Below, piece by piece: positions 11,936 through 23,037 of a stretch of 64,000 nucleotides of DNA. The translations under genes were made by a program, and so were the position numbers. Source of the DNA: Phycisphaera sp. Its GTDB lineage: Bacteria; Planctomycetota; Phycisphaerae; Phycisphaerales; Zrk34. Every line of letters begins with the position of its first letter. The first letter of the stretch is position 1. The notes under the pieces were generated by a model, which was not told the DNA's origin, did not search any database, and saw only the letters and a program-made list of their open reading frames with translations. The stretch is from positions 1-64,000 of the forward strand of contig WGMA01000024.1 in the NCBI GenBank assembly GCA_016125285.1. The letters run 5' to 3'.

Positions 11936-12973
11936 TCACCGCCGCGCCACGCGCACCACCCGCCGATCACCCTCGACCTCCTCCACCGTCACGTCCACGT
12001 CGACAAACCGCTTGATCAGCTCGATGTGCGTCGTCGCGTGCAGCGTCAGCGGCATCGTCGTGAATGCGCCCTCGCCCGCGATCGCCAGCGGCAACAGCAG
12101 CTGATCCGCCAGGTGCGGGCCGACCGGCACGTCGCTGTCGATCCACGCGCGTGCCTCCGTCAGCACCTCGCGCGCCACCACCTCCGCCTTGACGCCGCGT
12201 CGCCCGAACGCGATGAACAACTCCCGCGCCTTCACCGCTCGCACCTCGATCGTCAACACGTTGCCCGGCCCCGGCGAGGGCACGTCCTCCACGAACGCCC
12301 GAGACCCGCCCCACCACGGCACGCTCGTCACCTTACGCAGCTCGCGCTCGGCGATGTGCCGCGGCAGGTTCGACACGATCGCCCGCGCCAGCTTCTCGTC
12401 GATCCCGCCACGCTCGTGCAACTCGAAACCGCGCAGCACGCCGCCCGCCGCCGGCTCGACCCTCACGCGCACGCTGCCGCCCCCCGCCGGGTAAAACCCG
12501 CAACGCTCCAGGTCCACCGTCACCGTCGGCCCCATCCGGTTGATCAGCGGCACGTACACACGCTCTACGAAATCGAACGGCGGACCGCCCGGGTTGTGCG
12601 TCCCGCCCTCCAGCGTCACACGCGAAGTCCCCTCCGCCACGAGCAACGCCGGGAGGATCGTCTGCAGCACCAGCATCGTGCTGCCCGCCGTGCCGATCGA
12701 AAACCGGTAGTCGCCCGCGCGCACCACGCCGGGCTTGAACACGAACCGACACGACCCGACGTCCGCGCCCTCGATGTCCGCGCCGCAGACCTGCCCCGCC
12801 GCGCGGATCGCCGTGGCGTGCTGACGACGCAGGCCCGGCTTGTCACGCCCGGCGCGCACGTTGACCACCTCGATCGCCCGCCCCGTCAGCATCGCCAACG
12901 CGACCGACGACCGCACGATCTGCCCGCCGCCCTCGCCGAACGAACCGTCAATCTGGAGCAGGTCACCGTCCAT
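11936..12973 (-). CDS. rtcA: RNA 3'-terminal phosphate cyclase
   Basis: A 345-residue protein. It converts RNA 3'-phosphates to 2',3'-cyclic phosphates (and can adenylate 5' ends) through an AMP-histidine intermediate; His316 in TTHIEL is the likely nucleophile by position. Family motifs seen: DGSFGEGGGQIVRSS (9-23), GRDKPGLRRQH (42-52), SIGTAGST (92-99), GGTHNPGGPPFDF (123-135) and HLADQLLLPLA (287-297). It is 3 bases downstream of the oxygenase gene and follows the Ro60, Y-RNA and tRNA island on the same strand. In other bacteria rtc genes are often linked to Ro60. No rtcB is in the window. Confidence 0.95.
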   Translation of the reverse strand: MDGDLLQIDGSFGEGGGQIVRSSVALAMLTGRAIEVVNVRAGRDKPGLRRQHATAIRAAGQVCGADIEGADVGSCRFVFKPGVVRAGDYRFSIGTAGSTMLVLQTILPALLVAEGTSRVTLEGGTHNPGGPPFDFVERVYVPLINRMGPTVTVDLERCGFYPAGGGSVRVRVEPAAGGVLRGFELHERGGIDEKLARAIVSNLPRHIAERELRKVTSVPWWGGSRAFVEDVPSPGPGNVLTIEVRAVKARELFIAFGRRGVKAEVVAREVLTEARAWIDSDVPVGPHLADQLLLPLAIAGEGAFTTMPLTLHATTHIELIKRFVDVDVTVEEVEGDRRVVRVARR

Positions 12974-14952: not shown

Positions 14953-16533
14953 TCACAGGGTCACCGAGCGGACCTGGTTGACCCAGTGGCCCTGCTCGGT
15001 CGCGCCCTGCGCGACGTCGGCGATGAATCGGAAAACCTGGTCCGAGAAGCCGCCGACGTTGATCACGTCCGGCCGCTCCTTCGCCTGCGTCGAGCCGTAC
15101 GGCTGGATGTCGATGCAGACGAGCTTCGCCTTCGGGTTGCGCTTCTTGAACGCCGACCACTCCTTCATGGTCCGCGTCGCGGTGCTGCCCGCCGTTCGAC
15201 CATGCAGCGGCGAGTCCATCCACGACTCGTTGTCCGAGACGTAGATGACCATTTCGGCGCGAGCCTTGCGACGGTTCAGTTCCGCCAGGGGCGCCGAGCA
15301 GTCCGTACCGCCCGGCGGCTGACGCGTCAGTCGCTCGGCGTTGGTCATGACCGAGTCGCGCGGGTTCAGGCGGACGCCGCGAACCTTCTCGGCGAACGGG
15401 ACGACCTCGGCCGTATCGTTGCGACGGAGGACCGCCGCCGCGAACAGGGCCGCGACGTCCACGCAGCGCACCTTGCTGGTCGCGCCGGTGCGGAAGCCGG
15501 TGACCGGGCTCTGCATCGAGCCCGAGACGTCCGGGCAGACGACCACGCGGCCGTCGACCTTCGGCACGTTCTCGATCGCGATCTCCATCGCGTCCTGCAG
15601 GGCGTTGGTCACGGCCTTCGGGATGCCCGTCGCGGTGTTGAGGTACGCGACCATCAACTGGTACGGCATCACGCGCGAACGCGCGATCGCCTCGCGGTTA
15701 CGCAGGCGGTTGGCGACCACGCCGACCATCTCACGCTTCTCGAACACGCCGTGGCGTGCGAAGGTGTTCAGGTTCATGCGCGTCGTCTGCCACGACGCGT
15801 GACGCGCGACGTCGATCCAGTCCTTGACCGTGAGGTTCAACGCCGTGAGCATCTGCATCGGCACGTCCGGCACGTCGACCTTGCCGGCGTTGGTGTTGCG
15901 CTTGAACTTCTCGTAGTGCTTGACCAGGTCCGGCAGCGCCTCGGCGTCGTGAGCGCGACCGATGAGGTAACCGTACAGGGCCTCACGCGACGCGCCCGTC
16001 GGCTTCGGGTGCGCCATCTTGATCACGTCGGCGAGCGACGGGCTCTTGCCGATCGAGCCGACGAACAGCTGCGTGTCCGTGCGGGCGTCGAACCAGCGTC
16101 GGATCATCCGCTTCGGCAGCGAGCCGAGCGACTTGCGCCCCGTCACGCCGCTGCGCATGATCTGCACGAAGTTGCGGAGCATCTTCGCGTTGTCGATCAC
16201 GCGGTCGAACGCCTTGGCGAACAGCTGCGGGTCACGCGAGCTGAGCACCGCCAGCAGGATCGCCGGCATGTCCTTCATGTACCCACGCTCGCGAGCGAAC
16301 ACGGCCAGCTTCGCGATGAACTCGCTGTCGACGCGGCCGCACAGCGACAGGACCGTGTCGAGCTGCTCCTCGGCCGACGCGTAGAACGTCGCGTTGATGC
16401 AGCCCGTCGCCGCGTACTGGGCCAGGGCGTGGGTCGCGTCGAAGCCGTACGCGCGGCCCCCCGCCTCGTTGAAGGTATCCGTCTTCGGCGCGAGCACGCC
16501 GCGCCCCGAACCAAACAGCGCCTTGTTTGCCAT
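14953..16533 (-). CDS. rsr: Ro60 ortholog (TROVE plus von Willebrand A domain)
   Basis: A 526-residue protein. The TROVE HEAT-like ring occupies roughly residues 1-300 and binds Y RNAs and misfolded RNA ends. The vWA domain (about 328-526) carries the MIDAS motif Asp335-x-Ser337-x-Ser339. In Deinococcus the ortholog tethers Y RNA to polynucleotide phosphorylase and acts in rRNA maturation and decay of structured RNA. The start is ATG 16533, preceded by an excellent GGAGGT 6 bases upstream; the longer open frame runs into a tRNA. It is embedded in the tRNA array and followed directly by seven Y-RNA-like elements. Confidence 0.95.
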   Translation of the reverse strand: MANKALFGSGRGVLAPKTDTFNEAGGRAYGFDATHALAQYAATGCINATFYASAEEQLDTVLSLCGRVDSEFIAKLAVFARERGYMKDMPAILLAVLSSRDPQLFAKAFDRVIDNAKMLRNFVQIMRSGVTGRKSLGSLPKRMIRRWFDARTDTQLFVGSIGKSPSLADVIKMAHPKPTGASREALYGYLIGRAHDAEALPDLVKHYEKFKRNTNAGKVDVPDVPMQMLTALNLTVKDWIDVARHASWQTTRMNLNTFARHGVFEKREMVGVVANRLRNREAIARSRVMPYQLMVAYLNTATGIPKAVTNALQDAMEIAIENVPKVDGRVVVCPDVSGSMQSPVTGFRTGATSKVRCVDVAALFAAAVLRRNDTAEVVPFAEKVRGVRLNPRDSVMTNAERLTRQPPGGTDCSAPLAELNRRKARAEMVIYVSDNESWMDSPLHGRTAGSTATRTMKEWSAFKKRNPKAKLVCIDIQPYGSTQAKERPDVINVGGFSDQVFRFIADVAQGATEQGHWVNQVRSVTL

Positions 16534-16623: not shown

Positions 16624-16696
16624 AGACCCCGGCAGGGATCGAACCTGCGGCCTCCGCCTTCGCACGGCGACGCTCTTCCGGCTGAGCTACGAGGTC
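16624..16696 (-). tRNA. tRNA-Arg (anticodon GCG)
   Basis: Acceptor GACCTCG/CGGGGTC, D-arm GCTC/GAGC, anticodon loop GTGCGAA, T-loop TTCGATC. It lies immediately upstream of the Ro60 gene. No CCA encoded. Confidence 0.92.
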
Positions 16697-16702
16697 AGAT
16701 TC

Positions 16703-16763
16703 AGGGGACAGGAGACAGGTGACAGGAGGCAGTCGGACGCTCCATCTGTCTCCTGTCTCCTGA
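16703..16763. repeat. Heptamer tandem-repeat hairpin (GGAGACA family)
   Basis: Degenerate GGAGACA/GGTGACA heptamers (16703-16733) face the inverted TGTCTCC array (16745-16763), giving a hairpin in the spacer between tRNA-Arg and the Cys-anticodon tRNA. Confidence 0.7.
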
Positions 16764-16774
16764 CCGCTGGATCA

Positions 16775-16859
16775 AGCGCGGTGTGGGACTCGAACCCACG
16801 CGGGGCCATCGGCCCATCGGCTTTGCAGGCCGATGCCTTCGCCACTTGGCTAACCGCGC
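16775..16859 (-). tRNA. tRNA with anticodon GCA (Cys) and a long variable arm
   Basis: Acceptor GCGCGGT/ACCGCGC, anticodon stem TCGGC/GCCGA with loop CTGCAAA, T-loop TTCGAGT. The 17-base variable region forms a GGGCC/GGCCC stem, making this a class II tRNA. Standard bacterial tRNA-Cys has a short variable loop. Confidence 0.9.
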
Positions 16860-16866
16860 ACGTGAA

Positions 16867-16939
16867 TCGACCCGGGCGGACTTGAACCGCCGACCTCCCG
16901 ATTATCAGTCGAGCGCTCTGCCATCTGAGCTACGAGTCA
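16867..16939 (-). tRNA. tRNA-Ile (anticodon GAT)
   Basis: Acceptor TGACTCG/CGGGTCG, D-arm GCTC/GAGC, anticodon loop CTGATAA, T-loop TTCAAGT. Confidence 0.93.
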
Positions 16940-16944
16940 ATGAA

Positions 16945-17018
16945 TCGCGGTGGTGGGATTCGAACCCACGCTCTCCGGGTTATGAGCCCAGCGGGGACAG
17001 CCGCTCCCCTACACCGCA
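16945..17018 (-). tRNA. tRNA-Met (anticodon CAT), initiator-like
   Basis: Anticodon loop CTCATAA on a stem with three consecutive G-C pairs (GGG/CCC), a feature of initiator tRNA. The first acceptor pair is U-G rather than the C-A mismatch of E. coli initiator, so initiator or elongator identity is open. D-stem GGGG/CCCC; T-loop TTCGAAT. Confidence 0.88.
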
Positions 17019-17019
17019 A

Positions 17020-17091
17020 TGGACCATCTCGGGATTGAACCGAGACCTGCCGGGCTTCAACCGGCCGCTCTTCCGATTGAGCTAACGGTCC
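17020..17091 (-). tRNA. tRNA-Phe (anticodon GAA)
   Basis: Acceptor GGACCGT/ATGGTCC, anticodon stem GCCGG/CCGGC with loop TTGAAGC, T-loop TTCAATC. Confidence 0.93.
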
Positions 17092-17097
17092 TTTGTG

Positions 17098-17202
<105 letters not shown>

Positions 17203-17205
17203 GTA

Positions 17206-17365
17206 CGGAGCGACGTGTCGGCGTCGGCGGGTCGAAGGCACCCCGGCGCCGCGTTCGGTTCGGATGCCATGGACCCAAGGCCCCCGCGAGGGCCCCCTTC
17301 GGATGCTGAGTCGAAGGCCTCGTCCCTGTCACTGGCCGCCCTGCCAACGCCGACACGTCGCTCCG
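17206..17365. repeat. 160-base element closed by an 18-bp perfect inverted repeat
   Basis: CGGAGCGACGTGTCGGCG (17206-17223) is the exact inverse of 17348-17365. The interior holds imperfect repeats (GTCGAAGGC twice, TTCGGATGC twice) and a GGCCCCCGCGAGGGCCCCC hairpin. It has no tRNA or Y-RNA signature. It could be a structured RNA or a small mobile element remnant. Confidence 0.6.
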
Positions 17366-17379
17366 CGATCGATCAACAA

Positions 17380-17452
17380 TCCTCCCGGGTGGATTCGAAC
17401 CACCGCATCGCTGTTTGTAAGACAGCTGCTCTGGCCGCTGAGCTACGGGAGA
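17380..17452 (-). tRNA. tRNA-Val (anticodon TAC)
   Basis: Acceptor TCTCCCG/CGGGAGG, anticodon stem GCTGT/ACAGC with loop CTTACAA, T-loop TTCGAAT. Confidence 0.93.
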
Positions 17453-17458
17453 GAATTC

Positions 17459-17614
17459 ATTTGGTGATTTGGTGAAGTGGTGATTTGGTGAAGTAAAGTC
17501 GGAAGTGGGATCTGGGAACGCGGAAGTAGGCGACGCCGCCAGTTCCGCAATCCGAGTTCCGAGTTCCAACTTGGATCACTTCACCAAATCGCCACTTCGC
17601 CAAATCACCAAATG
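17459..17614. repeat. Nested tandem-repeat hairpin (octamer arms outside, GGAACGC heptamers inside)
   Basis: Outer arms 17459-17495 and 17575-17614 are TTTGGTGA octamers and their inverse. Inner arms 17499-17527 and 17541-17572 are GGAACGC/GGATCTG heptamers and their inverse. One family is nested exactly inside the other; 18181-18326 has the same nesting. Confidence 0.8.
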
Positions 17615-17621
17615 AATCGAA

Positions 17622-17693
17622 TCAGGCTGGAAGGATTCGAACCTACGCGTACGTGTTCCCGAAACACGCGCTCTGCCGCTGAGCTACAGCCTG
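17622..17693 (-). tRNA. tRNA-Pro (anticodon CGG)
   Basis: Acceptor CAGGCTG/CAGCCTG, anticodon stem CGTGT/ACACG with loop TTCGGGA, T-loop TTCGAAT. One T-stem mismatch (position 50-64). Confidence 0.92.
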
Positions 17694-17696
17694 TGG

Positions 17697-17768
17697 GGTG
17701 ACCGACGGGACTTGAACCCGTACCCCCGGACTCACACTCCGGTACTCTGCCGATTGAGCTACGATCAC
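17697..17768 (-). tRNA. tRNA-His (anticodon GTG)
   Basis: Acceptor GTGATCG/CGGTCAC with discriminator C, anticodon stem CCGGA/TCCGG with loop GTGTGAG, T-loop TTCAAGT. The base at -1 is T, so the extra G of tRNA-His is not encoded at the expected place. Confidence 0.92.
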
Positions 17769-17770
17769 AA

Positions 17771-17844
17771 TGGCCCCGGCGGGATTCGAACCTGCACTGG
17801 ACGGTGTCTGAAGCCGCTCCCTCTGCCGATTGGGGTACGGAGCC
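17771..17844 (-). tRNA. tRNA with anticodon CAG (Leu), lacking a long variable arm
   Basis: Acceptor GGCTCCG/CGGGGCC, anticodon loop TTCAGAC, 5-base variable loop, T-loop TTCGAAT. It is similar in body to the GAG and CAA tRNAs of the array. Mismatches at 31-39 and 51-63. Confidence 0.82.
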
Positions 17845-17850
17845 AAGTTG

Positions 17851-17941
17851 ATTTCGGATTGCGGATTTGGGATTGCGGATTGAAACCCAAACCCGAAAGT
17901 CGCTTGCCAAATCCGAAATCCGAAATCACAAATCCGAAATT
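17851..17941. repeat. Heptamer tandem-repeat hairpin (GGATTGC family)
   Basis: Left arm 17851-17882 (GGATTTC/GGATTGC heptamers), right arm 17907-17941 the inverted complement. Confidence 0.75.
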
Positions 17942-17946
17942 GACGA

Positions 17947-18019
17947 AGCCCCCGGCTGGACTCGAACCAGCACCTCCCGCTTTAGAAGAGCGGCACTCTT
18001 CCGCTTGAGCTACGAGGGC
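17947..18019 (-). tRNA. tRNA-Arg (anticodon TCT)
   Basis: Acceptor GCCCTCG/CGGGGGC, anticodon stem CCGCT/AGCGG with loop CTTCTAA, T-loop TTCGAGT. Confidence 0.93.
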
Positions 18020-18020
18020 G

Positions 18021-18093
18021 TTGGCAGGAGACACGAGACAGGAGACAGTGGACAGTGGGACTATCCGACTGTCTCCTGGTTCCTGTCTCCTGC
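18021..18093. repeat. Heptamer tandem-repeat hairpin (GGAGACA family)
   Basis: GGAGACA-type heptamers at about 18023-18058 face the inverse at about 18068-18093. Confidence 0.65.
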
Positions 18094-18099
18094 CGAAAG

Positions 18100-18171
18100 C
18101 ACGGCCGGCAGGATTTGAACCTGCATCCTCCGGTTTTGGAGACCGGCGCTCCGCCGTTGAGCTACGGGCCG
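18100..18171 (-). tRNA. tRNA-Trp (anticodon CCA)
   Basis: Anticodon stem CCGGT/ACCGG with loop CTCCAAA, D-arm GCTC/GAGC, T-loop TTCAAAT. The acceptor stem pairs well only if one C on the 5' strand is bulged, so the 5' boundary is uncertain by 1-2 bases and function may be reduced. Confidence 0.82.
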
Positions 18172-18180
18172 CGTGTTGCA

Positions 18181-18326
18181 TTTGGTGATTTGGTCTTGCT
18201 TAACTCAGAAGTGGGAACTCGGAACGCGGAACACGGAAGCGGGCGGCGCGATCAGTTCCGCGATCCGAGTTCCGAGTTCCCACTTGCATCACATCACCAA
18301 ATCGCCACTTCACCAGATCACCAAAT
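18181..18326. repeat. Nested tandem-repeat hairpin (octamer outside, GGAACGC heptamers inside)
   Basis: Octamer arms 18181-18197 and 18288-18326 enclose heptamer arms 18207-18238 and 18254-18284, the same order as at 17459-17614. Confidence 0.75.
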
Positions 18327-18328
18327 AA

Positions 18329-18402
18329 ATAGGGGCGGCTGGATTCGAACCAACACCTTGCGGAGTTTGAGTCCGCTGCCTCTGCCGTTGGGCTACGCCC
18401 CC
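18329..18402 (-). tRNA. tRNA with anticodon CAA (Leu), lacking a long variable arm
   Basis: Acceptor GGGGGCG/CGCCCCT, anticodon stem GCGGA/TCCGC with loop CTCAAAC, variable loop AAGGT, T-loop TTCGAAT. A well-paired class I cloverleaf with a Leu anticodon. Confidence 0.87.
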
Positions 18403-18551
18403 ACAACCTGAATCGTGACGACCGGACCGGACCGCGCCCGGAAGGGCTCATCCATCACCCCCGGAACAATCCCGGAACCACGGCGGGTTCAAATCAACTT
18501 TCTCCCCTCCGCGATCCGTATCCGGTCGCCACGATCATGAAGCGCTGCGCA

Positions 18552-18632
18552 TGTGCCGAGCAGGAGTCGAACCTGCAAGCCCTCTCGGGCGCGGGGTTAC
18601 AGCCCGCTTGGCTCACCGATGCCAGTCAACAC
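18552..18632 (-). tRNA. tRNA-Tyr (anticodon GTA)
   Basis: Class II: variable arm GCCC-GAGA-GGGC as expected for bacterial tRNA-Tyr. Acceptor GTGTTGA/TCGGCAC, anticodon stem GCGGG/CCCGC with loop CTGTAAC, T-loop TTCGACT. Position 8 is C instead of U. Confidence 0.88.
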
Positions 18633-18654
18633 GTGATGCGTGCTCAGCACGCAA

Positions 18655-18727
18655 TGGACCGACCAGGGACTCGAACCCTGAACTTCTCTGTGCAAGAGAG
18701 ACGCGTTTCCGGTTACGCCAGTGGCCC
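18655..18727 (-). tRNA. tRNA-Ala (anticodon TGC), copy 1
   Basis: Anticodon stem TCTCT/AGAGA with loop CTTGCAC, D-stem GCGT/ACGC, T-loop TTCGAGT. The acceptor (GGGCCAC with GTCGGTCC) pairs fully if one C on the 3' strand is bulged; the G-U pair that specifies Ala is then kept. Confidence 0.82.
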
Positions 18728-18745
18728 AGATTCGATGCGATGCAA

Positions 18746-18817
18746 TGGAGCTGGCAGGACTCGAACCCGCATCCCCCGCTTGCAAGGCGGGCACTCTGCC
18801 TGTTGAGTTACAGCCCC
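18746..18817 (-). tRNA. tRNA-Ala (anticodon TGC), copy 2
   Basis: Acceptor GGGGCTG/CAGCTCC with the alanine identity pair G3-U70, anticodon stem CCCGC/GCGGG with loop CTTGCAA, T-loop TTCGAGT. Confidence 0.93.
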
Positions 18818-18823
18818 GAACAA

Positions 18824-18898
18824 CGCCCCCAGGGGGACTTGAACCCCCGACCTTCCGGTTGACAACCGGGTGCTACCTGCCGTCTGAGCTATGAGGGC
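18824..18898 (-). tRNA. tRNA-Asp (anticodon GTC)
   Basis: Acceptor GCCCTCA/TGGGGGC with discriminator G, anticodon loop TTGTCAA on a CCGG/CCGG stem, T-loop TTCAAGT. Confidence 0.92.
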
Positions 18899-18904
18899 GG
18901 ATTG

Positions 18905-18990
18905 AAGTGGGAACGCGGAACTCGGAACGCGGAAGTGTTCCGATCTGCATCGCGAATCACTTCCGCGTTCCGCGATCCCACTTTCCACTT
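18905..18990. repeat. Heptamer tandem-repeat hairpin (GGAACGC family)
   Basis: Left arm 18905-18936, right arm 18958-18990; GGAACGC/GGAACTC heptamers and inverse. Confidence 0.75.
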
Positions 18991-18995
18991 ATGAA

Positions 18996-19068
18996 TGGCT
19001 TCGGTGGGATTCGAACCCACATCCAACCGCTTAAGAGGCGGCTGCTCTGCCAGTTGAGCTTCAAAGCC
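18996..19068 (-). tRNA. tRNA-Lys (anticodon CTT)
   Basis: Acceptor GGCTTTG/CGAAGCC, anticodon stem GCCGC/GCGGT with loop CTCTTAA, T-loop TTCGAAT. Position 8 is A instead of U. Confidence 0.9.
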
Positions 19069-19074
19069 GTGAAG

Positions 19075-19171
19075 TGATTTCGGATTGCGGATTGCGGATT
19101 TCGGATTTGAAACCAGCGCCCGACGGTGCCTGCCCAATCCGAAATCCGAAATCGAAAATCCGAAATCGAAA
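19075..19171. repeat. Heptamer tandem-repeat hairpin (GGATTGC family)
   Basis: Left arm 19075-19108, right arm 19133-19171; GGATTGC/GGATTTC heptamers and inverse. Confidence 0.75.
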
Positions 19172-19244
19172 TGGCCCCCGCAGGAGTCGAACCTGCAACC
19201 CTCCGGGTAAAAGCCGGACGCTCTGCCGGTTGAGCTAAGGAGCC
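19172..19244 (-). tRNA. tRNA-Lys (anticodon TTT)
   Basis: Acceptor GGCTCCT/GGGGGCC, anticodon stem TCCGG/CCGGA with loop CTTTTAC, T-loop TTCGACT. Confidence 0.92.
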
Positions 19245-19346
19245 GATGCCAACGTGAACGGCGACGGAACCGGGTCGAGCCGAGCAGGGACAGGGACTCG
19301 GATCAGCGAAGCTGGAGCCCGGCCCAACCCGGGTTCCATCGCCAAA

Positions 19347-19417
19347 AGCCAGCGGCGGGAATCGAACCCGCATCTACACCGTGGCATAGTGTCGTTCTGC
19401 CGTTGAACCACGCCAGC
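19347..19417 (-). tRNA. tRNA-Gly (anticodon GCC)
   Basis: Acceptor GCTGGCG/CGCTGGC, anticodon stem ACACT/GGTGT with loop ATGCCAC, T-loop TTCGATT. Confidence 0.93.
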
Positions 19418-19418
19418 G

Positions 19419-19453
19419 TTCATTTGGTGATTTGGTGAAGTGGTGATTTGGTG
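19419..19453. repeat. Single arm of the TTTGGTGA octamer family
   Basis: Four tandem octamers without the matching inverse nearby. Confidence 0.65.
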
Positions 19454-19477
19454 CGCCATCACCCGGTTTCGAAGAAG

Positions 19478-19549
19478 AGCCGGCAGTGGGAGTTGAACCC
19501 ACAACCCCTCCATTACGAGTGGAGAGCTCTGCCGTTGAGCTACACCGGC
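19478..19549 (-). tRNA. tRNA-Thr (anticodon CGT)
   Basis: Acceptor GCCGGTG/TGCCGGC, anticodon stem CTCCA/TGGAG with loop CTCGTAA, T-loop TTCAACT. Confidence 0.93.
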
Positions 19550-19552
19550 AAT

Positions 19553-19632
19553 TCAGGGATCAGGAATCAGTAGTCAGTGACCAGCGCGACGCCCGTGCCC
19601 ACACGCGACAAACTGACTACTGACCACTGACA
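19553..19632. repeat. Heptamer tandem-repeat hairpin (CAGTAGT family)
   Basis: Left arm 19553-19583 (CAGTAGT/CAGTGAC-type heptamers), right arm 19612-19632 the inverse. Confidence 0.7.
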
Positions 19633-19636
19633 CAAC

Positions 19637-19709
19637 AGCTATCGGCGGGAGTCGAACCCACGGCCTCGTTCGTACCAGGAACGCGCTCTGCCAACTGAGC
19701 TACGACAGC
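19637..19709 (-). tRNA. tRNA-Thr (anticodon GGT)
   Basis: Acceptor GCTGTCG/CGATAGC, anticodon stem CGTTC/GAACG with loop CTGGTAC, T-loop TTCGACT. Confidence 0.93.
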
Positions 19710-19797
19710 ATCAACAATCGCGAGACTCGGGTCCGGGGACTCGACCGGCTGAGAGAACCGGGAGTCGACCGCGGACCTGAATCCCGCATACCCACGG

Positions 19798-19882
19798 AAA
19801 GGAGACAGGTGACAGGCAACAGCCCAGCGGATCGCGCGCTGCACTGTCTCCTGTCTCCTGTTTCCTGTTTCCTGTCCCCTGA
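19798..19882. repeat. Heptamer tandem-repeat hairpin (GGAGACA family)
   Basis: Left arm from 19799, right arm to about 19880; GGAGACA variants and the inverse TCCTGTC/TTCCTGT. Confidence 0.7.
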
Positions 19883-19889
19883 TCAACAA

Positions 19890-19963
19890 CCGGCCCGGCG
19901 GGACTCGAACCCGCATCCTCCTGATTCAAAGTCAGGCGCTCCGGCCGATTGAGCTACGGGCCC
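19890..19963 (-). tRNA. tRNA-Gln (anticodon TTG)
   Basis: Acceptor GGGCCCG/CGGGCCG with an unpaired 1-72 (G-G), discriminator G, anticodon stem CCTGA/TCAGG with loop CTTTGAA, T-loop TTCGAGT. A weak first pair is typical for tRNA-Gln. Confidence 0.9.
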
Positions 19964-19965
19964 GG

Positions 19966-20047
19966 TTCCAGGAGCCAGTGGGCAGGAGACAGGAGCCAGA
20001 AGACGGCGCGTCGTACTGACACCTGACTCCTGACACCTGACCACTGA
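19966..20047. repeat. Mixed heptamer repeat region between tRNA-Gln and tRNA-Gly
   Basis: GGAGACA/GGAGCCA heptamers at 19966-20000 and CTGACAC/CTGACTC heptamers at 20016-20047; partial inverse complementarity. Confidence 0.6.
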
Positions 20048-20050
20048 AAA

Positions 20051-20122
20051 AGCGGACAGCGGGGATCGAACCCGCGCCACCGGTTTGGAAGACCGGTGCT
20101 CTGCCGATTGAGCTACATCCGC
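20051..20122 (-). tRNA. tRNA-Gly (anticodon TCC)
   Basis: Acceptor GCGGATG/TGTCCGC, anticodon stem CCGGT/ACCGG with loop CTTCCAA, T-loop TTCGATC. Confidence 0.93.
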
Positions 20123-20136
20123 GCTTTGATGGTGAG

Positions 20137-21060
20137 TTACTTCGAGTCGTTCGACGGCTTGTTCAGCCAGCCCATGCGCTTCATCCACGTGGCGCATCGG
20201 TCGGGCCAGGTGGTGACCGGCTCGTCGGTGCGACGCAGGCCGTAGCCGTGTCCGCCGAACGGGTAGATGTGCACCTCCGCGGTGCCGCCGACGCGTTTGA
20301 TCTCCGCGGCGAGCAGCAGCGAGCTCAGCGGCGTGACGTGATCGTCGAACGCCTGCGCGAAGAACATCGGCGGGGTCGTCTTGTCGGCCTTCACGTCGTC
20401 GTAGAGCTTGCCGGCCTTCGCGTCGGCGAGGTACGCCGGGTAGACCAGCACCGCGAAGTCGGGCCGGGCCGAGAGCTTGTCTGCGTCATCGATCGGGTCG
20501 TACAACTGCTCGGCGTGCTTCAGCGCGGTGAGCGCCGCGGCGTTGCCCCCGGCGGAAAAGCCGAGTACACCGACACGCCGCGGATCGATCGTCCACCTCT
20601 CCGCGTTGGCGCGCACGAGGCGGATCGCACGCTGCGTGTCCTGCACGGCGGCGAGCCACCGCTTGTCCTTGTCACGGGCCGGGACGCGGTACTTGAGCAC
20701 GATGCCGGTCACGCCGATCGAGTTGAGCCAGTCGGCGACCTCCGTGCCCTCGAGGTCGAGCGCGAGGATGTGGTAGCCGCCGCCGGGGCAGATCACGATC
20801 GCGGCGCCGGTGTCCTTGTCGGGCGCGGGCTTGTACACGGTGATGGTCGGCGTCGAGACGTTGCCGAGGCGGATGAGCCGACGCCCGGCCACGAGCCCGG
20901 ACTTCTCGTTCGTCGTGTCGGCCTCGGGCGGCAGTTTCAGGTCGGCGTCGCCCGGAGGCGTGCTCGGCCAGACGTTCATCTCCACAGGATCGGCGGCGAT
21001 CGCCGCGTCACCCAGCAGACCCATCGTCAACACCATCGTCAGCATCATCATGTATCGCAT
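20137..21060 (-). CDS. Secreted alpha/beta-hydrolase, acetyl-xylan esterase/lipase type
   Basis: A 307-residue protein with a signal peptide (about residues 1-22, ending AIA-ADP) and an alpha/beta-hydrolase of the BD-FAE/esterase group: oxyanion loop CPGGGYH, nucleophile elbow GFSAGG, acid in FDDHVTP, and catalytic His in GGHGYG. Likely an exported carbohydrate or lipid esterase. It is the only ordinary enzyme gene inside the tRNA array (between tRNA-Gly and tRNA-Gln, same strand), so it looks like an insertion into the array or a passenger gene. Confidence 0.87.
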   Translation of the reverse strand: MRYMMMLTMVLTMGLLGDAAIAADPVEMNVWPSTPPGDADLKLPPEADTTNEKSGLVAGRRLIRLGNVSTPTITVYKPAPDKDTGAAIVICPGGGYHILALDLEGTEVADWLNSIGVTGIVLKYRVPARDKDKRWLAAVQDTQRAIRLVRANAERWTIDPRRVGVLGFSAGGNAAALTALKHAEQLYDPIDDADKLSARPDFAVLVYPAYLADAKAGKLYDDVKADKTTPPMFFAQAFDDHVTPLSSLLLAAEIKRVGGTAEVHIYPFGGHGYGLRRTDEPVTTWPDRCATWMKRMGWLNKPSNDSK

Positions 21061-21130
21061 AGTTTGTGCCCATGTACGAGTAGCGAATGGTTCGACGCAT
21101 CAGCATAACGTCACAGGAATCGTACGCGAA

Positions 21131-21204
21131 CTGGCCCGGCAGGGATCGAACCTGCAACCTCCCGCTTCAGAGGCGGGCGCTCTCCCGGGTTGAGCTACAA
21201 GCCA
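21131..21204 (-). tRNA. tRNA-Gln (anticodon CTG)
   Basis: Acceptor TGGCTTG/CGGGCCA with the U1-A72 pair typical of tRNA-Gln, discriminator G, anticodon stem CCCGC/GCGGG with loop CTCTGAA, T-loop TTCGATC. Confidence 0.94.
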
Positions 21205-21208
21205 TCAA

Positions 21209-21281
21209 TGACCGCGGCAGGACTCGAACCTGCAACCGTCCGGTTCGAAGCCGGGGACTCGTCCGATTGAGCTTCGCGGTC
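21209..21281 (-). tRNA. tRNA-Arg (anticodon TCG)
   Basis: Acceptor GACCGCG/CGCGGTC, anticodon loop CTTCGAA, T-loop TTCGAGT. Position 8 is A instead of U; one mismatch at 27-43. Confidence 0.9.
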
Positions 21282-21299
21282 GTGTGTTGTGAGTGTGAA

Positions 21300-21371
21300 C
21301 TGGCGCAGCGGGATTCGAACCTGCATCTGGGCGGTTAACAGCCGCCTGCTCTACCGTTGAGCTACACGCCA
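21300..21371 (-). tRNA. tRNA-Asn (anticodon GTT)
   Basis: Acceptor TGGCGTG/TGCGCCA, discriminator G, anticodon stem GGCGG/CCGCC with loop CTGTTAA, T-loop TTCGAAT. Confidence 0.93.
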
Positions 21372-21379
21372 ATAGGAAA

Positions 21380-21465
21380 CGGAAGGTGAGGGAGTCGAAC
21401 CCCCAAGGCTGGTTAGGCTCCGCTGTTTTCGAGACAGCTTCCGTCGCCGATCGGATTGACCTTCC
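21380..21465 (-). tRNA. tRNA-Ser (anticodon CGA)
   Basis: Class II with a long variable arm. Acceptor GGAAGGT/ACCTTCC, discriminator G, anticodon stem GCTGT/ACAGC with loop CTCGAAA, T-loop TTCGACT. Confidence 0.93.
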
Positions 21466-21473
21466 TAATGGAA

Positions 21474-21564
21474 AGGAGAGAGTGGGATTCGAACCCACGG
21501 GAGACGTGTCCGCCTCCTGCGCCTTAGCACGGCGCCGCGTTCGGCCAGGCTCCGCCACCTCTCC
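21474..21564 (-). tRNA. tRNA-Ser (anticodon GCT)
   Basis: Class II. Acceptor GGAGAGG/TCTCTCC, anticodon stem GCGCC/GGCGC with loop GTGCTAA, 20-base variable arm, T-loop TTCGAAT. Confidence 0.93.
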
Positions 21565-21568
21565 GCAA

Positions 21569-21641
21569 CAGCCCCAGGGGGATTCGAACCCGCCATCATC
21601 CGATTGAAAGACGGACATCTTCGCCATTGGACCATGGGGCC
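21569..21641 (-). tRNA. tRNA-Glu (anticodon TTC)
   Basis: Acceptor GGCCCCA/TGGGGCT, discriminator G, anticodon loop CTTTCAA, T-loop TTCGAAT. Mismatches at 31-39 and 50-64. Confidence 0.88.
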
Positions 21642-21649
21642 GAAGGTGC

Positions 21650-21735
21650 AGCAGTCAGTGGTCAGTATTCAGTAGTCAGTTCTATAGAATGATTCAGATT
21701 ACTGATTCCTGACTACTGATACCTGACTTCTGCAT
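21650..21735. repeat. Heptamer tandem-repeat hairpin (CAGTAGT family)
   Basis: Left arm 21650-21680 (CAGTGGT, CAGTATT, CAGTAGT heptamers), right arm 21700-21735 the inverse. Confidence 0.75.
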
Positions 21736-21738
21736 AAG

Positions 21739-21811
21739 CAGCCCCAGTGGGAATCGAACCCTACGTCTTCCGGTAGAGAGCCGGACGTCCGTTCCGCTGG
21801 ACCATGGGGCC
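21739..21811 (-). tRNA. tRNA-Glu (anticodon CTC)
   Basis: Acceptor GGCCCCA/TGGGGCT, anticodon stem TCCGG/CCGGA with loop CTCTCTA, T-loop TTCGATT. The T-stem has only three pairs. It is a sister of the TTC tRNA at 21569. Confidence 0.87.
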
Positions 21812-21917
21812 GTAACCGCCCCCGGAAGCCCGGGGGCGGGTTGTGCTCACATCAAGGCGATTCACTTGTCAAAGACCGCTGTAATCACCGCGTTTAGACG
21901 CGATGAAGGCGTAACAA

Positions 21918-21999
21918 TAGCCCCGGCAGGATTTGAACCTGCACGCCGTTGCGGCATCGGTTTCTAAGACCGACGCGTCTCCCGTTCCGCCACGGGGCC
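21918..21999 (-). tRNA. tRNA-Leu (anticodon TAG), normal class II
   Basis: Acceptor GGCCCCG/CGGGGCT, anticodon stem TCGGT/ACCGA with loop CTTAGAA, variable arm with GCCG..CGGC stem, T-loop TTCAAAT. It is the first tRNA of the array; its 5' end directly touches the poly-U tract of terminator 2. Confidence 0.93.
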
Positions 22000-22033
22000 A
22001 AATAAAAAACCCGGCGACCTGAGTCACCGGGTT
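22000..22033 (-). terminator. Terminator 2 (attenuator) directly before the tRNA array
   Basis: On the minus strand an 11-bp stem (AACCCGGTGAC / GTCGCCGGGTT, loop TCAG) is followed by TTTTTTATTT. The 5' arm and loop contain GTGACTCAG (22027-22019), exactly complementary to CTGAGTCAC at 22061-22053, which begins two bases after the leader stop codon. The two pairings exclude each other. Confidence 0.85.
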
Positions 22034-22051
22034 TCTATAGAACCGTGTGGT

Positions 22052-22062
22052 AGTGACTCAGA
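22052..22062 (-). promoter_or_regulatory. Antiterminator strand abutting the leader stop codon
   Basis: CTGAGTCAC with a flanking base on each side can form 9 Watson-Crick and 2 wobble pairs with the 5' part of terminator 2. It starts at the first base after the UGA of the 50-codon leader, so a ribosome that finishes the leader would cover it and let the terminator form. Confidence 0.7.
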
Positions 22063-22215
22063 TCATGACGCACCGTCCCCGAGCTTCGGCATCGAGATAC
22101 CCAGATCGACGGCGGGGTTCGCATTAAAGCGATAACCCATCACGTGCGTCGCGCAGGGTGACCATGGCCGGCTGGCTTCGGTCGTCTGCATTCTTGTCTC
22201 TTCTTGCCGTAACAT
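22063..22215 (-). CDS. Leader peptide (50 codons) containing all 20 amino acids
   Basis: The ATG at 22215 is preceded by AAAGGAAA with about 7 bases spacing. The 50-residue product contains every one of the 20 amino acids, encoded by 37 different sense codons, including ones rare in this GC-rich window (TTA, AGA, ACA, TCA, CCA). It matches no protein family I know. Directly after its stop lie an antiterminator strand and terminator 2, then the tRNA array. The design is that of a translational attenuator whose ribosome would stall on shortage of any charged tRNA. A longer in-frame start (22311) has no supporting ribosome site. Confidence 0.6.
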   Translation of the reverse strand: MLRQEETRMQTTEASRPWSPCATHVMGYRFNANPAVDLGISMPKLGDGAS

Positions 22216-22309
22216 CGTGGTTTCCTTTGAAGGCTTTCCCTCGGTATTCCCTTGTTTCTGGCCCAACGAATGGTTCGCGGGCCTATTGCGTTCCGCCGTC
22301 AGTTTCGCC

Positions 22310-22340
22310 AAATAAAAAACCCGGCCACACTGTCGCCGGG
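22310..22340 (-). terminator. Terminator 1 in the leader of the tRNA array
   Basis: CCCGGC/GCCGGG stem (22320-22340) followed by TTTTTTATTTGGC, the same tail as terminator 2. The 5' arm can instead pair with GCCGGG inside the 10-codon ORF just upstream, so this too may be an attenuator. Confidence 0.75.
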
Positions 22341-22380: not shown

Positions 22381-22401
22381 CTTCGGTTGTCAACTGATGA
22401 A

Positions 22402-22430
22402 ACTTTAGTTTTCGGATGTGCCAAGGTCAA
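22402..22430 (-). promoter_or_regulatory. Promoter of the leader and tRNA array
   Basis: Minus strand: -35 TTGACC (22430-22425), 17-base spacer, -10 TAAAGT (22407-22402); predicted start near 22395. It is the best sigma70-like promoter upstream of the leader ORFs and the array. Confidence 0.6.
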
Positions 22431-22824: not shown

Positions 22825-23037
22825 ATGTCCCGCAAGTTCAAACAGACCCGAAAGAGCCGTCGATCCAAGACACGAAGCCCCGTCAATAACCTGTCACAGG
22901 TCACCGCCGACGCCCCTCGCGTGCACCGCTTCGGCGAGCTTCGCATCCCGGCCGACGCGCAGGTCCGAGATTCGTGTTACATCCAGGGCCAGGACGTGAA
23001 TGAGTCGATGGACATGTGGTGGAACTGCGAAGAGTAA
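22825..23037 (+). CDS. Small protein with a basic N-terminus, unknown function
   Basis: A 70-residue ORF with a strong ribosome site (GGAGGA 7-8 bases before ATG). Residues 1-18 are almost all Lys/Arg/Ser/Thr; the rest is acidic and ends in MWWNCEE. It might bind nucleic acid through the basic tail. I do not recognise it. It ends 28 bases before the convergent MFS-PlsC gene. Confidence 0.6.
   Translation: MSRKFKQTRKSRRSKTRSPVNNLSQVTADAPRVHRFGELRIPADAQVRDSCYIQGQDVNESMDMWWNCEE

Follow-up and report, generated by a model that had tools for sequence, protein, structure and literature searches.

A short leader ORF containing all 20 amino acids before a spare tRNA array of a Phycisphaera genome: a probable ribosome-dependent attenuator with counterparts in two other phyla

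Known attenuators each sense a single amino acid or a small number of them. The leaders of amino-acid operons carry repeated codons for one to three of the amino acids made by the operon, and the ilv and thr leaders are multi-amino-acid cases of the same kind of attenuation. In the leaders of tRNA arrays described here, by contrast, each amino acid has about one codon, these codons are dispersed through an ORF of 50–95 codons and take in all isoacceptor families, and the product is a set of tRNAs. Their control-codon enrichment is a completeness over amino acids and isoacceptors and not a repetition of one codon. With the trp and his attenuators they share a short ORF with a ribosome site, a terminator before the first gene, an antiterminator mutually exclusive with this terminator, and the position of the ribosome as the signal (PMC1183508). 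In such ribosome-mediated attenuation, which is the closest known mechanism, the ribosome departs from the stop codon after about 1 s (PMC1183508).

The closest biology is that of the Anabaena trn operon, which comprises 26 tRNAs on a megaplasmid and is silent until induced by translation inhibitors (PMC10272220). Like the array considered below, it is a normally redundant tRNA set thought to serve translational stress; in contrast to the array leaders, it is governed by the repressor TrcR, and its description mentions no leader or attenuator (PMC10272220). The closest gene company is found in the Salmonella rsr-yrlBA-rtcBA operon, where a Ro60 orthologue stands together with RNA repair enzymes answering damaged tRNA (PMC7790460), although there the switch consists of RtcR and sigma-54, Y RNAs are present, and neither a tRNA array nor a leader peptide occurs. 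T-box regulators also sense tRNA charging to control transcription, but each of them binds one tRNA directly. A search of the open-access literature returned no paper describing a leader that uses all 20 amino acids.

The window analysed here is a stretch of 64,000 nt from Phycisphaera sp. (Planctomycetota), contig WGMA01000024.1, positions 1 to 64,000 of the forward strand. Its minus strand bears an array of 31 tRNA genes (16624..22000), which begins with tRNA-Leu (22000) and which, as the first-pass annotation of this DNA had stated, covers all 20 amino acids. Since about 47 dispersed tRNA genes are present elsewhere in the genome, the array is a second set. It is followed by a Ro60-like gene (14953..16533, minus strand; TROVE plus vWA_Ro60), a further tRNA-Leu, a 2OG-Fe(II) oxygenase gene and, downstream on the same strand, the gene of the RNA 3'-terminal phosphate cyclase RtcA (11936..12973, minus strand), so that Ro60 and RtcA are both found at the locus. 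Within the array and on the same strand lies an alpha/beta hydrolase gene (BD-FAE like, 20137-21060, minus strand), whose neighbours are tRNA-Gly (20051-20122) and tRNA-Gln (21131-21204). Several array spacers (18906-18985, 19070-19165, 19560-19635 and others) contain simple-looking imperfect inverted repeats, for example GATTTCGGATTGCGGATT; similar spacers were seen in acidobacterial arrays and, in one locus (L202), upstream of the first detected tRNA.

Upstream of the array, an ORF of 50 codons runs from ATG to TGA (22215..22063, minus strand), with the Shine-Dalgarno sequence AAGGA (22223..22227, minus strand) 7 nt before the ATG. Re-deriving it confirmed the earlier description of a frame with a ribosome site that employs every amino acid through 37 different codons; the peptide is MLRQEETRMQTTEASRPWSPCATHVMGYRFNANPAVDLGISMPKLGDGAS. 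The rare-tRNA codons TTA, AGA and AGC are present and the AUA (ATA) codon is missing. All 20 amino acids are held by 3.1% of random 50-mers drawn at the local composition, by 0.5% of the stop-free 50-codon stretches in the six frames of the window and by 0.8% of 50-aa windows taken from ordinary long ORFs. The ORF has no Pfam match, BLASTN against 200 genomes of its order revealed no sequence relative, and in its own genome the peptide found only itself above chance. Two short BLASTN matches, both within other genes and without tRNAs, were judged to be due to chance. As the window leader has no sequence relatives, the conservation reported below is that of the class and not of the window copy.

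Just before the first tRNA there is an intrinsic terminator, composed of a hairpin and a T run (22002..22036, minus strand). The hairpin (22036..22005) has a computed energy of -25 kcal/mol in a 70-nt context (z = -3.8), and the T run stops a few bases short of tRNA-Leu (22000). The antiterminator strand GATCTGAGTCAC (22053..22064, minus strand) overlaps the last two bases of the TGA and would be covered by a ribosome standing on this codon. Its partner GTGACTCAGGTC (22016..22027, minus strand) is part of the 5' arm and loop of the terminator, and the two form 12 bp with one G-U. The complement next to the stop codon that the first-pass annotation had pointed out is thus real and slightly longer (12 nt) than was claimed; as a small correction, one T separates the UGA from CTGAGTCAC. 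In computed folds the antiterminator reaches -20.2 kcal/mol (z -3.6) versus -23.0 for the terminator (z -5.1), and the two, which differ little in strength, are predicted to exclude each other. When the region that a ribosome at the stop would cover was shuffled, the antiterminator gave p = 0.010. Judged from the window sequence alone, the leader and its antiterminator are suggestive and exceed chance only moderately.

A sigma-70-like promoter, TTGACC-17-TAAAGT (22402..22430, minus strand), is weak and a consensus match only; promoters of leaders elsewhere have TTGACA-17/18-TAAAAC or TATATT in the same place. The true promoter of the window is uncertain because a first terminator-like hairpin (22310..22340, minus strand) sits upstream of the leader ORF, between it and this weak promoter. 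The TTGACAACCGAA box (22382..22393, minus strand) resembles the conserved TTTGACAACYGAA box of acidobacterial leaders, in which the box comes after the terminator, and may play a boxA-like role. Identification with an rrn-type boxA was not supported: in one acidobacterium the exact motif was present only at the leader, and in another it was found at two places, neither of which has rRNA within 3 kb. The leader ORF is flanked by a 22-nt near-direct repeat (95%; 21997-22018 and 22307-22328, 310 bases apart), both copies of which are tails of terminator-like hairpins, and the module looks duplicated. A divergent ORF of 70 codons (22825-23037, plus strand), also without a Pfam match, lies upstream of the leader promoter.

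Ro60 homologues were gathered from the order and phylum of the window, from an acidobacterial class and from a myxobacterial class using the protein itself as the query; most of these Ro60s were missed by the TROVE Pfam model when it was run against the genomes. Many of the acidobacterial and myxobacterial Ro60 genes have an array of 8 to 34 tRNAs on their upstream side. In front of the arrays of Acidobacteriota and Myxococcota, as in the window, stand a promoter, a ribosome site and a short ORF, and a terminator separates this ORF from the first tRNA. Twenty-nine leaders were picked by position and signals, their starts being hand-chosen: 21 of them contain all 20 amino acids, 7 contain 19 and one contains 18, as does a myxobacterial leader outside this series (L261). 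Ordinary long ORFs of the same loci are complete in 1.2% of 54-aa and 4.3% of 69-aa windows. The terminator between ORF and array was located by automatic search in 27/29 cases and by hand in two, and a terminator with an alternative pairing is present in nearly all leaders. The leader sequences cannot be aligned between phyla. The expectation that other arrays would keep the completeness and not the sequence therefore held in Acidobacteriota and Myxococcota. In four myxobacterial loci (L257, L259, L260, L271) a second ORF or terminator seems to be placed between the leader and the first tRNA, as in tandem modules.

Shuffling residues within alignment columns keeps the tolerance of each position and breaks compensation; the resulting P values are indicative, as this shuffle ignores relatedness. 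Complete leaders number 8/11 in the 54-aa acidobacterial group (2.6 expected) and 7/8 in a second group (1.0 expected), values never reached in 20000 column shuffles, and 17/24 in the enlarged 54-aa family, where 7.1 were expected and 14 was the maximum in 5000 shuffles. All 24 peptides of this family have exactly one Trp, at position 5, 27 or 28. By these sequence patterns, completeness over the 20 amino acids is under selection. A scan of both strands of 1.9 Mb of these loci, including 32 array-less Ro60 loci, for ORFs of 48-100 aa with a ribosome site, a terminator and 20 amino acids recovered 14 known leaders and no other ORF, at a sensitivity of about half.

A blind test was possible in Acidobacteriota. 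A covariance model was built from 19 leaders using only the RNA after the stop codon, and it matched 81 of the 162 genomes of the acidobacterial class. For each of 70 fetched places, a mechanical rule blind to composition picked the ORF whose end coincides with the first position of the model. Of the 57 leaders that came from genomes not used for training, 42 are complete, 10 lack one amino acid, 2 lack two and 3 lack three, so that 52 contain at least 19, the complete fraction of equally long ordinary protein segments being about 1-12%; a tRNA follows within the fetched stretch in 48/57. When these were reduced to 38 representatives less than 50% identical, 27 were complete versus 1.6 expected, a binomial tail of 7e-17 even with the longest-leader baseline. 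Eight acidobacterial genomes (G604, G616, G619, G626, G628, G629, G683 and G685) have two matches to the leader RNA model each, and in one pair of leader copies (L349/L350) the weaker copy is no longer complete (17-18 amino acids).

Selection is also apparent in the choice among synonymous codons. With the amino-acid sequence held fixed, AGA is present in 54 of the 57 new leaders versus 18 expected, ATA in 47 versus 17 and TTA in 48 versus 22; AAA (56/57, 44 expected) and CAA (53/57, 39 expected) are in excess as well, four-box NNT codons are depleted, and the first 28 leaders have the same bias. The over-representation of codons that require a tRNA of their own is selected and does not reflect a simple A+T bias. 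Because the excess of AGA, ATA and TTA is seen at a fixed amino-acid sequence, a function of the peptide cannot explain it; tRNA sensing does explain the codon pattern of the leaders.

The link to Ro60 is not essential. In the acidobacterial class the leader is found in 33 of 35 genomes with Ro60 and in 48 of 127 genomes without it; these 48 genomes indicate that it is the array, and not Ro60, with which the leader goes. At four planctomycete Ro60-linked arrays (L229, L233, L240, L241) no such leader was found. None of the Ro60 relatives from the window's own order has a tRNA array, and in the Ro60 tree the window protein nests among these array-less proteins, which implies at least five gains or losses of arrays. 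Ro60 relatives were also noted on plasmid, phage and virus contigs.

All of the features named so far, namely completeness, isoacceptor codon choice, terminator, alternative pairing and position, can be read from the genomes themselves, and we give a probability of roughly 0.8 to the view that the window ORF serves as leader in a transcription attenuator that depends on the ribosome and precedes the spare tRNA set. An upstream promoter would yield a transcript with a short ORF that samples every amino acid and most tRNA isoacceptor families. Reading of this ORF by a ribosome from start to stop would choose between two mutually exclusive hairpins beside the stop codon, and this choice would make RNA polymerase halt before the array or enter it. 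With control codons throughout the ORF, a signal independent of position can only be a ribosome at the stop versus one stuck before it, and by such a signal the failure of any one charged tRNA would be sensed. That the leader is translated and that the hairpins act in the cell in this way is what we infer from these arrangements. A translated leader polling all tRNAs before spare arrays is very well supported for the class and likely for the window. It also seems probable that we are dealing with a general decoding checkpoint, in which a single leader would poll every isoacceptor family and, upon failure of any one of them, switch a complete set of spare tRNAs, with or without RNA repair genes, in three phyla and independently of Ro60. 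The earlier idea of a universal sensor of tRNA shortage is strengthened to the extent that completeness is conserved and extends to isoacceptor families; the direction of the response and the link to Ro60 are not established.

The direction would depend on the architecture next to the stop codon. In Myxococcota and the window together the stop-abutting antiterminator is supported by a combined Fisher p=7e-6, and these pairings predict that a stall opens the array: a ribosome at the stop would hide the antiterminator strand and let the terminator form, a completed round favouring termination, and a stalled ribosome would leave this strand free and permit read-through into the tRNAs. The acidobacterial leaders have four strands, hairpin 1:2 starting 4-7 nt after the stop and 3:4 being the terminator, with strand 2 also able to pair with terminator strand 3. 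At every one of its 7 pairs this 2:3 complementarity is present in 72-74 of the 74 sequences, and it beats shuffled spacers in 15/19 cases (p 0.02 or less), and the position of the stop codon before the hairpin is constant within 1 nt in 70/70. With a ribosome at the stop the predicted terminator probability is 0.09 vs 0.94 in one leader (L213) and 0.22 vs 0.95 in another (L217). The acidobacterial attenuator is thereby predicted to have the opposite sign, a ribosome at the stop hiding strand 1, favouring 2:3 and allowing read-through. The antiterminators are supported by computed folds and shuffles with little covariation, which cannot settle the sign as the acidobacterial core is almost invariant. 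The sensor and the point of readout appear to be common to all groups, the predicted sign differing; the proposal that shortage releases tRNAs is in keeping with the pairings of the window and Myxococcota; the extra strand of Acidobacteriota predicts the opposite. In many acidobacterial arrays a further conserved element GGCAGAGAG...CTCTGCC with a T run stands just before the first tRNA; it was seen between the leader terminator and the first tRNA in L034, L038, L198, L199, L204, L207 and L223, has no Rfam match and is possibly a small RNA or a second terminator.

A tentative alternative, which we regard as possible and not as the preferred one, is the same sensor with the opposite sign, where full translation of the leader opens the array and a shortage of any charged tRNA closes it, a cis-acting counterpart of the stringent control of stable RNA. 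All acidobacterial leaders have hairpin 1:2 after the stop with strand 2 pairing to strand 3, and a ribosome over strand 1 lowers the predicted terminator probability in both leaders just mentioned; equilibrium folding, however, ignores kinetics, a ribosome at the stop would cover the antiterminator strand itself in the window and in Myxococcota, predicting the reverse, and the known spare array, the Anabaena trn operon, is induced by translation inhibitors (PMC10272220). We consider it improbable that the 20 amino acids of the window are a coincidence, the ORF merely lying between tandem terminators and the array using internal promoters. The single-sequence chance of only 0.5-3%, the want of a homologous leader in the window's order and the near-duplicate terminator tail flanking the ORF would fit this, but the ORF is placed exactly as the complete leaders of two other phyla are, a ribosome site precedes it, a terminator abuts it, an antiterminator overlaps its stop (p=0.010), and it includes the rare-tRNA codons TTA and AGA.

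Control of the array by a structured regulator other than a translated leader, such as a T-box, a riboswitch or a Y RNA, is very improbable. Structured elements and a boxA-like motif do occur between leader and array in many genomes; against this, Rfam gave no family for the leader region of the window at E up to 1 and, for ten relatives at gathering thresholds, no match besides tRNAs. A T-box covariance model had no match in the window, no Y RNA was found beside Ro60, and the Rfam matches in the window are tRNAs only. Least likely of all, and barely credible, is a functional small protein whose rich composition is incidental. Members of the 54-aa group do agree at some positions (mean identity 35%), yet the amino acids are kept while they move, as Trp does between positions 5, 27 and 28, groups of different phyla cannot be aligned with each other, there is selection for synonymous codons of rare isoacceptors, and the window ORF matches nothing in Pfam.

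If the attenuator reading is true, the array leader would be a global cis-acting sensor of decoding capacity, about 60 codons long and needing no protein regulator, selected to contain each amino acid and each tRNA that is hard to substitute. This would account for the silence of large spare tRNA sets, and it would connect these sets with toxins that cleave tRNA, with phages, antibiotics or starvation. A rule by which completeness is conserved and sequence is free lends itself to simple tests and to searches of any genome, and the leader is a part that could easily be built into reporters of translation stress.
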